A stretch of 29,565 nt of DNA from a virus: positions 1-29,565 of the IMG/VR virus record IMGVR_UViG_3300048929_000802; one strand, 5' to 3'. The position numbers and the translations under genes are program-made. This document shows, piece after piece, positions 4,438 through 7,981 of this stretch (position 1 is the first letter of the stretch; each line of letters starts with the position of its first letter). The notes beneath the pieces are model-generated. The model made no database searches, was not told the origin of the DNA, and saw nothing but the letters and a program-made list of their open reading frames with translations.

Positions 4438-5256
4438 ATGATTCTTTCAAGTGAAACGCATATCTTCAGGTTTAGAGGGGATAATATCAATACTATAAAT
4501 GAGCTTGTTAATAATGCTATTTGGCATTCCAAAAATAGTATTCTTAATGACCCATTTGATATGTTTTATCATTTTGATAAAGAGTCTCTTAGGCAGTTTG
4601 ATAAATCGGACCTTTCAACTCTGGTAGATAGGTTGGATACAATTACAGGTGAGGGGGAATGGCTTCGAGAGCTACTAGATAGAAATGAACTTAATGAAAT
4701 TTATCAACGCATTGATGATGTGTGGGGAGATAGTTTTGCTAAAGGTTTTCTAAAGGAGTTTCAAAAGAATGTTGCCGTTGCCAGTTTTACTAAGAACTAT
4801 AATAGCAGATTGATGTGGGGGTATTATGGGAGCGGAATGAAAGGAATATGCTTTGCATATAATAAAGAAAGATTGAAGAATTCTGGTATTGAACTTTCTG
4901 ATGTGACATATGACGTTAAAGCTCCTAAAGTTGATCTTTATAAACATCTTCTTGAGATGACTCGTGGTGAGACGGCATCTATAAATTTTGACTTTGCACT
5001 TGTTAAACATTCTGATTGGGAGCGGGAGGAAGAGGTAAGAAGCTTGTATTTCCTCGACAGTGATGCTGTTTACGAACATCAGAGTGGTATTGAGGTACCC
5101 CTGCAAGGCTGTTGCATTGATACGATAATTATTGGCGAACGTTTAGTCGGAGATATGCGGGTTTTCATTGAAAATTTCGCCAAAAAAAATGGCATTGAAA
5201 TAATGATAGCAAAAGCAGATTATACAAATTATAAAATACAGCTTGGGTCTAATTAG
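4438..5256 (+). CDS. DUF2971 protein, accessory cargo
   Basis: A 272-aa protein with the DUF2971 pattern: LNDPFD (36-41), VASFTKN (114-120), LMWGYYGSGMKGICFAY (125-141) and KHSDWEREEEVR (190-201), then IDTIIIGER (227-235). DUF2971 proteins have no settled biochemical role; some are found among phage-defence genes. GGGG lies 7 nt before the ATG. It is much more AT-rich than A and Q, which indicates recent acquisition. It lies between A and cos, the place of tin/old in P2, so a role in superinfection exclusion or abortive infection is a reasonable inference. No signal peptide or membrane segment is visible. It has no clear promoter of its own and may be read through from A. Confidence 0.8.
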   Translation: MILSSETHIFRFRGDNINTINELVNNAIWHSKNSILNDPFDMFYHFDKESLRQFDKSDLSTLVDRLDTITGEGEWLRELLDRNELNEIYQRIDDVWGDSFAKGFLKEFQKNVAVASFTKNYNSRLMWGYYGSGMKGICFAYNKERLKNSGIELSDVTYDVKAPKVDLYKHLLEMTRGETASINFDFALVKHSDWEREEEVRSLYFLDSDAVYEHQSGIEVPLQGCCIDTIIIGERLVGDMRVFIENFAKKNGIEIMIAKADYTNYKIQLGSN

Positions 5257-5317
5257 CCCATGCATGCATCAGGTGCATGAGTTTGCATTTGTTTTTTATT
5301 TCAGGATTTGCCAGCCA

Positions 5318-5333
5318 GCGCCAGCGCTGGCGC
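5318..5333. repeat. 16-bp palindrome left of cos
   Basis: GCGCCAGCGCTGGCGC is a perfect 16-bp palindrome about 50 bp from the cos cut site. Terminase recognition in P2/P4 needs sequences flanking the cut, so this is a candidate terminase or architectural protein site. The function is inferred from position only. Confidence 0.5.
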
Positions 5334-5384
5334 GGCTCGGGGCTTGAGATGCACCTGCATTAAAAGCGACCCATTAAGCGGGCA

Positions 5385-5403
5385 GGCGAGGCGGGGATAG
5401 CAT
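5385..5403. other. cos site (19-nt cohesive end)
   Basis: GGCGAGGCGGGGATAGCAT matches the 19-nt P2/P4 cohesive end GGCGAGGCGGGGAAAGCAC at 17 of 19 positions as I recall that sequence. It lies between A and Q as in P2. Terminase (gpP/gpM) cuts here, so in the virion the DUF2971 gene is at the right end of the linear DNA and the HEPN-motif gene at the left end. Confidence 0.88.
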
Positions 5404-5474
5404 TGCGCGACGAGGTAACAGTAATTATTCATAACTGTACGTTAGTAAATTTACCTTAAGTTGTTGGGGGCGAA

Positions 5475-5543
5475 TTAATTCCGCATTAGCCGTGGATTAT
5501 AAGTTATTTAGTGTTGATTTCTTACTATTGGCGAGGTTAAGAT
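5475..5543 (+). promoter_or_regulatory. Candidate promoters of the HEPN-motif gene
   Basis: Two sigma-70-like promoters precede the gene at 5607: TTAATT (5475-5480)-17 bp-TATAAG (5498-5503), and TTGATT (5514-5519)-18 bp-TAAGAT (5538-5543). Either would let the gene be transcribed in the lysogen independently of the lytic operons, as expected for defence cargo. Confidence 0.45.
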
Positions 5544-5606
5544 GAAGTAAGATTTTCCATTGGCATTTTCTATTTCTAAAGAATGTTTATTTAGGGGGTT
5601 AGAATA

Positions 5607-6854
5607 GTGGATATTATTACTGCAAAAAAAACTTTTAAAGAAAAGTACTCAGTTCCATTTTTAGAATTGGTTGATGAACATCACAGCGAGCTTTTTTTTA
5701 AGACAAGACATAATGATATAGTTAAAGTTTCTTCGGAAGAACTACAGTCTTTTATTGATTTTGAAAAAACAAGAGATGATTTCATAGCCGGTCCGGTAGA
5801 ATGTTCTATGTGTAGTTCTAATTATCGTGAGCAAGTAATCAGTTCTGGAAGTCGCTATTTCAATTCTTTTTTAATTGCTCGGCGAGGTCCTTTTATTTTT
5901 GGAGATAAGGAAAGTGGCGGTATTTATGCAGAAATAGGTGAGGCAAGCGATAACTTCAAGAACTTTTTCCGTTTTAGTGAAGGGTACCTGGAACATTCTA
6001 TTGAACGAATCACTAGGCGTCCAAACTATAGTGGTAACAGTTTTTTTGATATCCTATATACCCCTTTAACTATTCGTGTGTATAACATCGGAGCTTCTGA
6101 TCACACCCAGGCAATTAAGAAAAGCCAGAATATAATTGAAGGTTGTCTGTTCAATTTGTCCTATTTAAAAAATATTGCATTATCACCTGATGAAAAATGG
6201 CCTCGTCGCTCAGAGAATCAGAGGCCATTTCAATTTGGAGAGCGTGATATTAATGGGGTTTACCCATTACCAAAAGGAAGTTTAAATACAGATATTCTTA
6301 GGTTTTATCAGCGTGGAATGGCTACGGACGATCCAGTCAATCAATATTTATCGTTTTACCAAGTGCTAGAGTATTTCTTTGTTTCTATTTCGGATGAAGA
6401 GTTATATCGCAAGATGTCTGCTATAATCAATAACCCGGCGTTTTCTGCTAAACCCAAACAGCTAGATAAACTAATTCAGGAAACTGCGAATCACAAACGA
6501 GAATCGGATGAAACAGAAATGTTGAGAATGGTGCTAAAGCATTATGTAGATGAGTCTGAGTTAACCGACTTTATTGAAGAGTATGAAGCTTACCTTGATG
6601 AATCATGGTTTACGAAAAAAAGAAGCGTATTTGGTGAAGAAAATGATATTCGACTTCAGCAAGGTCATGTTATTGGGAATGTATCGAAAAGGGTTAAGAT
6701 AATAAGGAACACGTTAGTGCATTCATCCGATCGCTATAATCGTAAAGATGGTTATATTCCAAATTCTCACTCGGAAGGAATTGTGAAAAAAGAAGTTCCA
6801 CTCGTTAAGTATCTTGCTGAACGGGTTATTATTGCTAATTCGTATAATCGTTGA
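5607..6854 (+). CDS. HEPN-motif protein, putative anti-phage RNase
   Basis: A 415-aa protein starting at GTG 5607, with TTAGGGGG 8 nt upstream. The C-terminal third (about 240-400) is helical and carries YQVLEYFF (251-258) and R367-N-T-L-V-H372, the R-x4-H signature of HEPN ribonucleases, in the arrangement of ApeA-type HEPN domains. The N-terminal 230 residues are an unrecognised domain with one C-x2-C pair (66-69) and might act as a sensor. No transmembrane segment or signal peptide is seen. HEPN proteins of this kind cut RNA to abort infection. The gene is strongly AT-rich, has its own candidate promoters and sits alone between cos and portal Q, where P2 has no gene. The defence role is inference from motif and location. 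It could instead be the toxin of a two-gene module, but no antitoxin-like gene adjoins it. Confidence 0.7.
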   Translation: MDIITAKKTFKEKYSVPFLELVDEHHSELFFKTRHNDIVKVSSEELQSFIDFEKTRDDFIAGPVECSMCSSNYREQVISSGSRYFNSFLIARRGPFIFGDKESGGIYAEIGEASDNFKNFFRFSEGYLEHSIERITRRPNYSGNSFFDILYTPLTIRVYNIGASDHTQAIKKSQNIIEGCLFNLSYLKNIALSPDEKWPRRSENQRPFQFGERDINGVYPLPKGSLNTDILRFYQRGMATDDPVNQYLSFYQVLEYFFVSISDEELYRKMSAIINNPAFSAKPKQLDKLIQETANHKRESDETEMLRMVLKHYVDESELTDFIEEYEAYLDESWFTKKRSVFGEENDIRLQQGHVIGNVSKRVKIIRNTLVHSSDRYNRKDGYIPNSHSEGIVKKEVPLVKYLAERVIIANSYNR

Positions 6855-6863
6855 CAAATATAA

Positions 6864-6896
6864 CCCTTGGTTACTTCTTTTTAAAGAAACCAAGGG
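6864..6896. terminator. Hairpin between convergent genes
   Basis: CCCTTGGTT (6864-6872) and AACCAAGGG (6888-6896) form a perfect 9-bp stem with a 15-nt loop that can pair further (CTTCTTT with AAAGAA). It lies between the stop of the HEPN-motif gene and the stop of Q on the other strand, as expected for a shared terminator. Neither side has a strong T-run, so efficiency is uncertain. Confidence 0.5.
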
Positions 6897-6958
6897 CTTG
6901 AGATGATTTACTTGGGGATGTATCTATAATAACTATAGTGGTTTGGATAGCATACGCA

Positions 6959-7981
6959 TCAGCTACCCAATTCATATTCCTTAAATCTGATCACCTCCAT
7001 ACCGAGCCAGTCGTTTATCTCTTTGAAACGCTCCTGCAGCGGCGTCAGCTCGTTGCGCACAAACACCCGCGCCACCTTCTCGATATCGCCCATCGAGCCG
7101 ATATTTTCAGGCTTGCCGCCCATGAGCTGGAACGGCACACGGTGCGCATCGAGCAGGTCAGCGGCGCTCACCTTCTTGATGTTAAAAAAATCATCCTTGG
7201 TGGCGACTTCACTCAGCGGCACGATCTTAATGCCGTCCGGTTTCCCGTTCGGGGCATAGAAAAACAGGTTTTTAAAATTCCCGAGTCCTTTCGAGTCGCG
7301 CATCGCGGAGCGCAGCGCCTCGACGTCGGTGCTGCTTTGCGCCGCGTCGGTCACGTACATGATGTAACCCGCGTGCGCGCCGTTCTGGTAATACTTGCGA
7401 CGGAACAGCGTGGCGGATTCGTTCAGCCAGGCGGAATTTAGCGCGCTCAGGTATTCCGGCATCCCGTAGAGCTCCTGATTGATATCAGGCTCAAGCAGAT
7501 GAAACACCGAACCGGGGGCGAACTGGTGCGGGTGGGTAAAGCTCGACACGTACCAGTAAACGCCATCCTCGACACCACGGCGGGTGTATTTGGCCGGGGA
7601 GGTTTCCAGTTTAAAGAGCTGGCCGGTTACGCTCATGCGCTTTTCGAGATAGCCGTTGGCAAACACCAGATAATCAAGCACAAGGCGGCTGAAGTCCTGA
7701 CGCGACAGCAACGGGTGCGGGATAAAGGTGCTGGTCAGAATGTTGCGCTTGACGTAAATCGGGGAGCTGTGGTGTACGGCGGCGCGCAGGCTTTTTGCCA
7801 GTCCCGAGAAGTTGACCGGCGGCTCGTACCATTTGCCGTTGTTGATGCATTCGACATAGTCGAGGATGTCGCGGCGATCCAGAACGGGTGACGGCTCACC
7901 AAAGGTGAACGCCTCCATTTTCTGCGGCGCGCTGGTGGTCATGTTGGTCTGTTTTGGCTGTTTCTTTTGGCGTTTTTTCAT
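6959..7981 (-). CDS. Q: Portal protein gpQ
   Basis: The dodecameric portal at the capsid vertex, through which terminase packages DNA and to which the tail attaches. It is 340 aa against 344 in P2. Family segments include LNSAWLNESATLFRRKYYQNGAHAGYIMYVTD and the C-terminal DAHRVPFQLMGGKPENIGSMGD block. The N-terminus is Lys/Gln-rich (KKRQKKQPKQ). It is transcribed leftward with P, whose stop lies one nt before the Q start region, and is probably co-expressed from the promoter in the P-O interval. In P2 the portal N-terminus is processed during head maturation. Confidence 0.97.
   Translation of the reverse strand: MKKRQKKQPKQTNMTTSAPQKMEAFTFGEPSPVLDRRDILDYVECINNGKWYEPPVNFSGLAKSLRAAVHHSSPIYVKRNILTSTFIPHPLLSRQDFSRLVLDYLVFANGYLEKRMSVTGQLFKLETSPAKYTRRGVEDGVYWYVSSFTHPHQFAPGSVFHLLEPDINQELYGMPEYLSALNSAWLNESATLFRRKYYQNGAHAGYIMYVTDAAQSSTDVEALRSAMRDSKGLGNFKNLFFYAPNGKPDGIKIVPLSEVATKDDFFNIKKVSAADLLDAHRVPFQLMGGKPENIGSMGDIEKVARVFVRNELTPLQERFKEINDWLGMEVIRFKEYELGS

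Follow-up and report, generated by a model that had tools for sequence, protein, structure and literature searches.

The question raised by this locus is what is encoded by a single AT-rich gene between the cos site and the portal gene of a P2-like phage, and whether it serves in defence against other phages. The window (the whole stretch of DNA analysed, 29,565 bases) is an IMG/VR virus record with P2-type genes. Enterobacter phage ENT4 was the best-ranked record for it in the phage collection; of the first 25 kb, 57% aligned at 89.5% identity.

The gene at 5607-6854

The gene (hereafter the HEPN gene) occupies positions 5607 to 6854 on the plus strand, starts with GTG and encodes a protein of 415 aa with two domains. 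Its GC content was 35.7%, against 53.1% across the window. The longest chance open reading frame (ORF) in 2000 first-order Markov sequences modelled on positions 5407 to 6937 had a median length of 66 aa and a maximum of 161 aa, compared with the 415 aa found here. The GTG start is supported by alignment with L015, the closest homologue, which begins at the same place. ORF length relative to the Markov sequences, together with base composition, confirmed the 415-aa AT-rich gene of the initial annotation as a real gene.

No ORF of at least 60 aa was listed in 5257-5606 or in 6855-6937, and the longest antisense ORF inside the gene comprised 41 codons. The initial annotation had also credited the gene with promoters of its own. 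This was not borne out by a sigma-70 scan of positions 5250 to 7000, which returned four sites against 6.2 expected and none on the plus strand. A possible terminator stem-loop with a poor T tail was located 3' of the gene on the plus strand (6864-6896; −15.2 kcal/mol, z −4.49 relative to 200 shuffled sequences), and was not detected by the terminator scan.

A variable cargo site adjoining cos

The gene is bordered on the left by the cos site (5385-5403, plus strand), in which 17 of 19 bases, the first 13 included, are those of P2 cosL, and on the right by the portal gene, equivalent to P2 Q (6959-7981, minus strand; Pfam Phage_portal, 1.6e-12). In the P2 record the stretch from cosL (1-19) to Q (187-1221) contains a putative terminator only, which agrees with the earlier description of a lone gene in a gap empty of genes in P2. 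On the A side of cos, the window carries a DUF2971 gene (4438-5256, plus strand; GC 35.8%), assigned by Pfam DUF2971, phrog_1762 and PADLOC PDC-S31 (1.1e-31). PDC-S31 is a PADLOC candidate defence gene.

Seven relatives carrying the DUF2971 gene at the same place (L002 and L009-L014) were compared with the window by blastn. Homology stopped at 5409 and restarted at 6975-7001, inside the portal gene, and the ENT4 breakpoints (5409 and about 6975) matched those of the relatives. No trace of the HEPN protein was found by tblastn in these eight loci. By both measures the stretch 5410-6974 is absent or replaced in the seven relatives and in ENT4. Since the DUF2971 gene was present and the HEPN gene missing in 7/7 relatives, the former was ruled out as an obligate partner and was treated as separate cargo. 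The two blastn matches were separated by 179-207 bases in six of the seven; in L011 the gap was filled by 1.76 kb of other sequence holding two different ORFs, of 225 and 226 aa (L011:7027-8615), so the portal side of cos accepts varied cargo.

The A-Q interval as a whole has been described as a defence hotspot (PMC9122126, sections 8 and 10; also PMC9519451, in part), in which genes of other roles are present too (PMC9122126, section 10). The HEPN gene is variable cargo of this P2 A-Q (cos) hotspot and adjoins cos, as the earlier proposal of exchangeable cargo at a published defence site had held. It resembles old, tin and other P2 A-Q cargo in being exchangeable and located between A and Q (PMC9122126, section 10) and differs in its side: the P2 record has old and tin on the A side of cos, whereas the HEPN gene lies on the portal side. 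The ENT4 A-Q cargo, also on the A side, comprised an AAA_13 protein of 742 aa (2.8e-109; L109:866-3094).

Sampling and distribution of the family

Homologues were collected by a scan of one genome per species, in which 70 loci were confirmed. The alignment contained 61 rows: the window protein, 52 of these 70 loci and eight of ten from a second set. Fragments, frame-broken copies and L036 (a duplicate of a plasmid gene) were left out, as were the full-length rows L069, L074, L076, L078 and L083. The 70 loci came from archaea and from phyla including Pseudomonadota, Chloroflexota, Bacteroidota, Bacillota and Actinomycetota. The nearest homologues were L015 (63% identity), L016 from Hahella (50%) and L017 from Anaerolineales (49%), and the window protein was grouped with these three in the tree at starred support; such mixed taxa among nearest homologues suggest transfer. 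In Hahella, the homologue was preceded on its own strand, at a distance of 68 bp, by a DUF4062 gene (L016:4740-5918), a possible local partner.

The family was rare: among 392 genomes from the taxonomic family to which Citrobacter youngae belongs, two carried it, that of C. youngae itself being one of them. A relative with 28-30% identity overall, and 35% over residues 146-410, was present in 39 of 5426 E. coli genomes. In the three loci examined, it alone was annotated in the interval from delta to the next host gene, in an element encoding a TOPRIM/DUF927 protein, psu, delta and, in one locus, an integrase. This element is read as a P4-like satellite. L091, L023 and L086 contained no copy of the P2 cos sequence at up to three mismatches; the satellite slot was accordingly assigned from the order of the genes (psu, delta) and from PMC9122126. 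In Citrobacter youngae (L023) the relative was located between a DUF5343/HEPN_Swt1 pair and an integrase. That pair (L023:935-2165), of which the HEPN_Swt1 gene matches PADLOC PDC-M34B, lay directly upstream, placing two HEPN proteins side by side next to an integrase. A further relative (L086) belonged to another P2-like element, whose portal gene, 54% identical to that of the window, was some 4 kb away; an SRAP gene and a DNA methyltransferase gene (L086:3274-5840) lay between this relative and the portal gene.

Among 131 neighbours of homologues, each of the 25 PADLOC families listed (of 264) matched at most three, in a count made without a control set; these were restriction-modification and mads models, and phage integrase was matched by two neighbours. 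Searches of the INPHARED phage set returned only chance matches for the window protein and no match for L015 or the E. coli relative. The DNA of the HEPN gene had no match in the E. coli genomes, PHROGs and NCBIfam contained no family for the protein, and no relative was confirmed in an IMG/VR scan queried with just the protein, a scan from which the window's own record was possibly absent.

The C-terminal half

The C-terminal half (residues 222-415; 6270-6851, plus strand) contains the motif R367-N-T-L-V-H372, with R367 encoded at 6705-6707 and H372 at 6720-6722. An R-x4-6-H pattern occurred in 88% of 5000 shuffles of the protein and RNxxxH in 3.7%, so the motif by itself counts for little and the case is carried by conservation. 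R367 and H372 were identical in 61/61 aligned homologues, and the position following the arginine (368) was N in 54, C in six and D in one. The motif was present in 75 of the 79 homologous ORFs examined; the other four were frame-broken (L025), only 67 aa long (L084), split between frames (L088) or ended before the motif region (L079). The genome scan pattern was built around residues 247-255, which makes Y251 and E255 (6369-6371) invariant partly by construction; for E255 the invariance is not independent evidence. R367, H372, E75 and P385 were outside the selection in the 52 genome rows.

An AlphaFold2 model of the whole protein had a mean pLDDT of 91.6 and a pTM of 0.83. Helices were predicted at residues 228-239, 243-255/258-274, 355-371 and 387-410, with the motif closing the long third helix and E255 within the second. 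In the published description of the HEPN topology, helix 3 ends in the motif and helix 2 carries an acidic residue (PMC3710099, in part), and the modelled helical fold and the placement of both motif and acidic residue fit that description. In structure comparison of this half, 1wwp, which is listed as HEPN (PMC3710099, in part), ranked top with a Z of 6.6 over 106 residues and an rmsd of 2.9, a Z below 8, which may reflect merely a common helix arrangement. Further matches were three chains of MntA-HepT (Z 5.2-5.5), Csm6 (4.1) and RnlA (3.6). HEPN proteins made up four of the six matches at Z of at least 5, the other two being unrelated proteins matched through a single helix. With the whole model as query, Foldseek returned nothing at E≤0.001 in PDB or BFVD; sequence searches of the PDB found no relative, giving three chance matches with phmmer and one match at 0.066 with a profile. 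The initial annotation of a HEPN-type C-terminal half with an R367-x4-H372 motif was upheld by the quality of the model, by structure matches led by HEPN proteins at modest Z and by the conservation of both residues, and this half is very probably a HEPN domain.

The N-terminal half

Residues 1-194 (5607-6188, plus strand) are predicted to form an alpha+beta domain, for which a sensor role is proposed. When residues 1-205 were modelled alone, the pLDDT was 90.0 and the pTM 0.85. E75 (5829-5831) was the sole N-domain column invariant in 61/61 rows. A profile built from the 44 distant members alone recovered the window N-domain at 1.3e-9, and the close and distant profiles aligned over 180 columns with 97.9% probability. 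Reversed sequences, as a control, scored 0.75 or worse. L028 belongs with the close set and was dropped from this test. In the two-way search, 9/16 close and 9/44 distant rows passed 1e-3, so the domain is divergent. Judged by these profiles, it is homologous across the family.

In a neighbour control, three of the 131 neighbours matched the N-domain. Each was a separate ORF just upstream of a short HEPN ORF (L048:2212-2841, L075:5339-5782 and L077:5183-6064), and the three are read as split-off N-domains, arising from split genes or frame errors. Because of this arrangement and the family-wide homology, the domain is held to travel with the HEPN domain of the family. The initial annotation had not recognised the domain, and the searches bore this out: Foldseek with the N-domain alone gave a best E of 0.046 (TM 0.2), VIA-align gave no row at Z of at least 5 (best 4.5, over 39 residues of FosA3), and neither provided a convincing solved fold, nor was a family found in Pfam, PADLOC, PHROGs or NCBIfam.

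Proposed function and alternatives

The HEPN fold of the gene product is well supported, and we infer a defence role from position and precedent. The reading we favour, and judge fairly likely to be right, is that a P2-like temperate phage carries, as cargo, a stand-alone immune effector consisting of one protein, whose N-domain senses a competing phage and whose HEPN RNase aborts infection. The N-terminal domain (1-194) would recognise a sign of infection by another phage, and recognition would free the C-terminal HEPN domain (222-415). The latter would dimerise, bringing the R367 and H372 residues of its two copies into one cleft, and would cut RNA. The infected lysogen would then die or stall before the competitor multiplied, that is, by abortive infection.

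This reading is supported by the match of the HEPN half to DzbB, a defence protein, in 59 of the 61 members (PADLOC PDLC03836, best 1.5e-13); by the exchangeability of the cargo within the A-Q hotspot and the occurrence of relatives as E. coli satellite cargo or near a portal gene (L086); and by the precedent of Tha, an HEPN RNase of prophages that has been tested and that has both R-x4-H and an N-terminal part (PMC11087260, in part). It is weakened because structure matches stayed below Z 8, two of the six best rows were unrelated proteins and Foldseek was empty at E≤0.001; because the window protein's own scores against DzbB (E 0.0021) and MauJ were weak; and because the hotspot also houses genes with other roles.

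MntA-HepT, the second-best structural match, has HEPN toxins, and the gene might accordingly be a toxin or maintenance gene whose RNase retains the prophage or excludes superinfecting relatives, protection against unrelated phages being incidental. We consider this unlikely, as no candidate antitoxin was found among ORFs of at least 60 aa in 5257-5606 and 6855-6937 or among antisense frames, which reached at most 41 codons; trans-acting or shorter inhibitors lie beyond the reach of that search. A half-share in a two-gene system with the DUF2971 gene across cos would suit the low GC of both genes (35.7 and 35.8%), their positions flanking cos and the candidate defence status of PDC-S31. The 7/7 relatives with DUF2971 and no HEPN gene, and the satellite relative standing alone in three loci, argue against such a pairing, to which we assign very little probability.

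A non-immune RNA-processing or regulatory enzyme would be in keeping with the Pfam name MauJ, as PF17419 matches 54/61 members. That name mirrors one annotation, however, and a family that is exchangeable phage and satellite cargo, sparse in genomes (2/392) and without an adjoining mau gene in the window makes this account improbable. Loss of the motif in some HEPN families (PMC3710099, Table 1, in part) leaves room for a fold that only binds nucleic acid without catalysis, which the invariance of R367 and H372 in 61/61 rows renders hardly credible.

The immune-effector reading can be extended tentatively. The family may form an unnamed stand-alone immune system, common to bacteria and archaea, in which a conserved N-domain keyed by E75 senses infection and activates the HEPN RNase. 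It would occupy cargo slots of P2-like phages and P4-like satellites, and its versions may target the same rivals or each other. Consisting of one small protein and occurring in several phyla as well as in both kinds of element, it is easily cloned and tested.

Comparison with known systems

Among the papers listed in the literature search, none dealt with this family or with WP_001008529; supplementary tables were outside that search, and the satellite relative may be there. Uncharacterised HEPN systems were named in the P4 hotspot by Rousset et al. (PMC9122126), and four validated HEPN systems have been reported (PMC13092281, in part). The Pfam MauJ profile (PF17419) matched the 54 members at E≤0.01, whereas the window protein scored 27.5 bits over 48 of 116 positions, just under the cut-off of 28, and the methylamine context was absent. 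The name MauJ (methylamine utilisation) reflects a single annotation.

Kinship to DzbB of Dazbog is seen in the HEPN half of nearly the whole family, but the match of the window protein is partial (DzbB 195-307 of 341). DzbA is a name in the Dazbog context, for the DUF262 gene. Dazbog includes such a gene (PMC10952713, in part), and Pfam detected no DUF262 in gene A, the DUF2971 gene or the portal gene, with no other ORF of at least 60 aa between the DUF2971 and HEPN genes. None of nine places in two genome searches extended to DzbB positions 1-114. Membership of Dazbog was ruled out because no DUF262 gene is adjacent and DzbB is not matched over its full length, its first 114 positions being unmatched.

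ApeA likewise combines an N-terminal domain and a C-terminal HEPN domain in one protein, but ApeA-NTD1 is about 300 aa and mostly beta (PMC3710099, Table 2), whereas the window N-domain is 194 aa and predicted to be alpha+beta. HEPN_Apea matched 1/61 members (0.0022); the window protein itself had no hit at E≤1 to the Apea-type HEPN profile or to the ApeA N-terminal domain, and ApeA membership was rejected. Tha, from Staphylococcus aureus prophages, is similarly a single gene encoding an N-terminal part and a C-terminal HEPN RNase with R-x4-H (PMC11087260, in part). It differs in its length of 301 aa, in an N-terminal part without a recognised domain and in an antisense inhibitor gene, which was not seen in the window. 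Homology to Tha was rejected, as hhalign of the 61-row alignment against Tha-1 of 80alpha gave a probability of 0.4% over 18 columns. By analogy, the protein probably works in a Tha-like manner, as a resident prophage protein whose N-terminal part detects a component of a phage, after which its HEPN dimer degrades RNA.

The gene had been proposed as undescribed. This was too broad for the HEPN half, to which DzbB of Dazbog and Pfam MauJ are related, HEPN effectors and DzbB-like HEPN domains being already known. It held for the N-domain and for the combination: by sequence comparison, the N-domain and single-protein form correspond to no family in Pfam, PHROGs, NCBIfam or PADLOC-DB 2.0.0. The effector is thus of a known type and the sensing half is unrecognised. 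If the proposed function is true, the protein adds to these systems a one-gene sensor-RNase, with a defined N-domain and one invariant residue from which a phage trigger can be sought.
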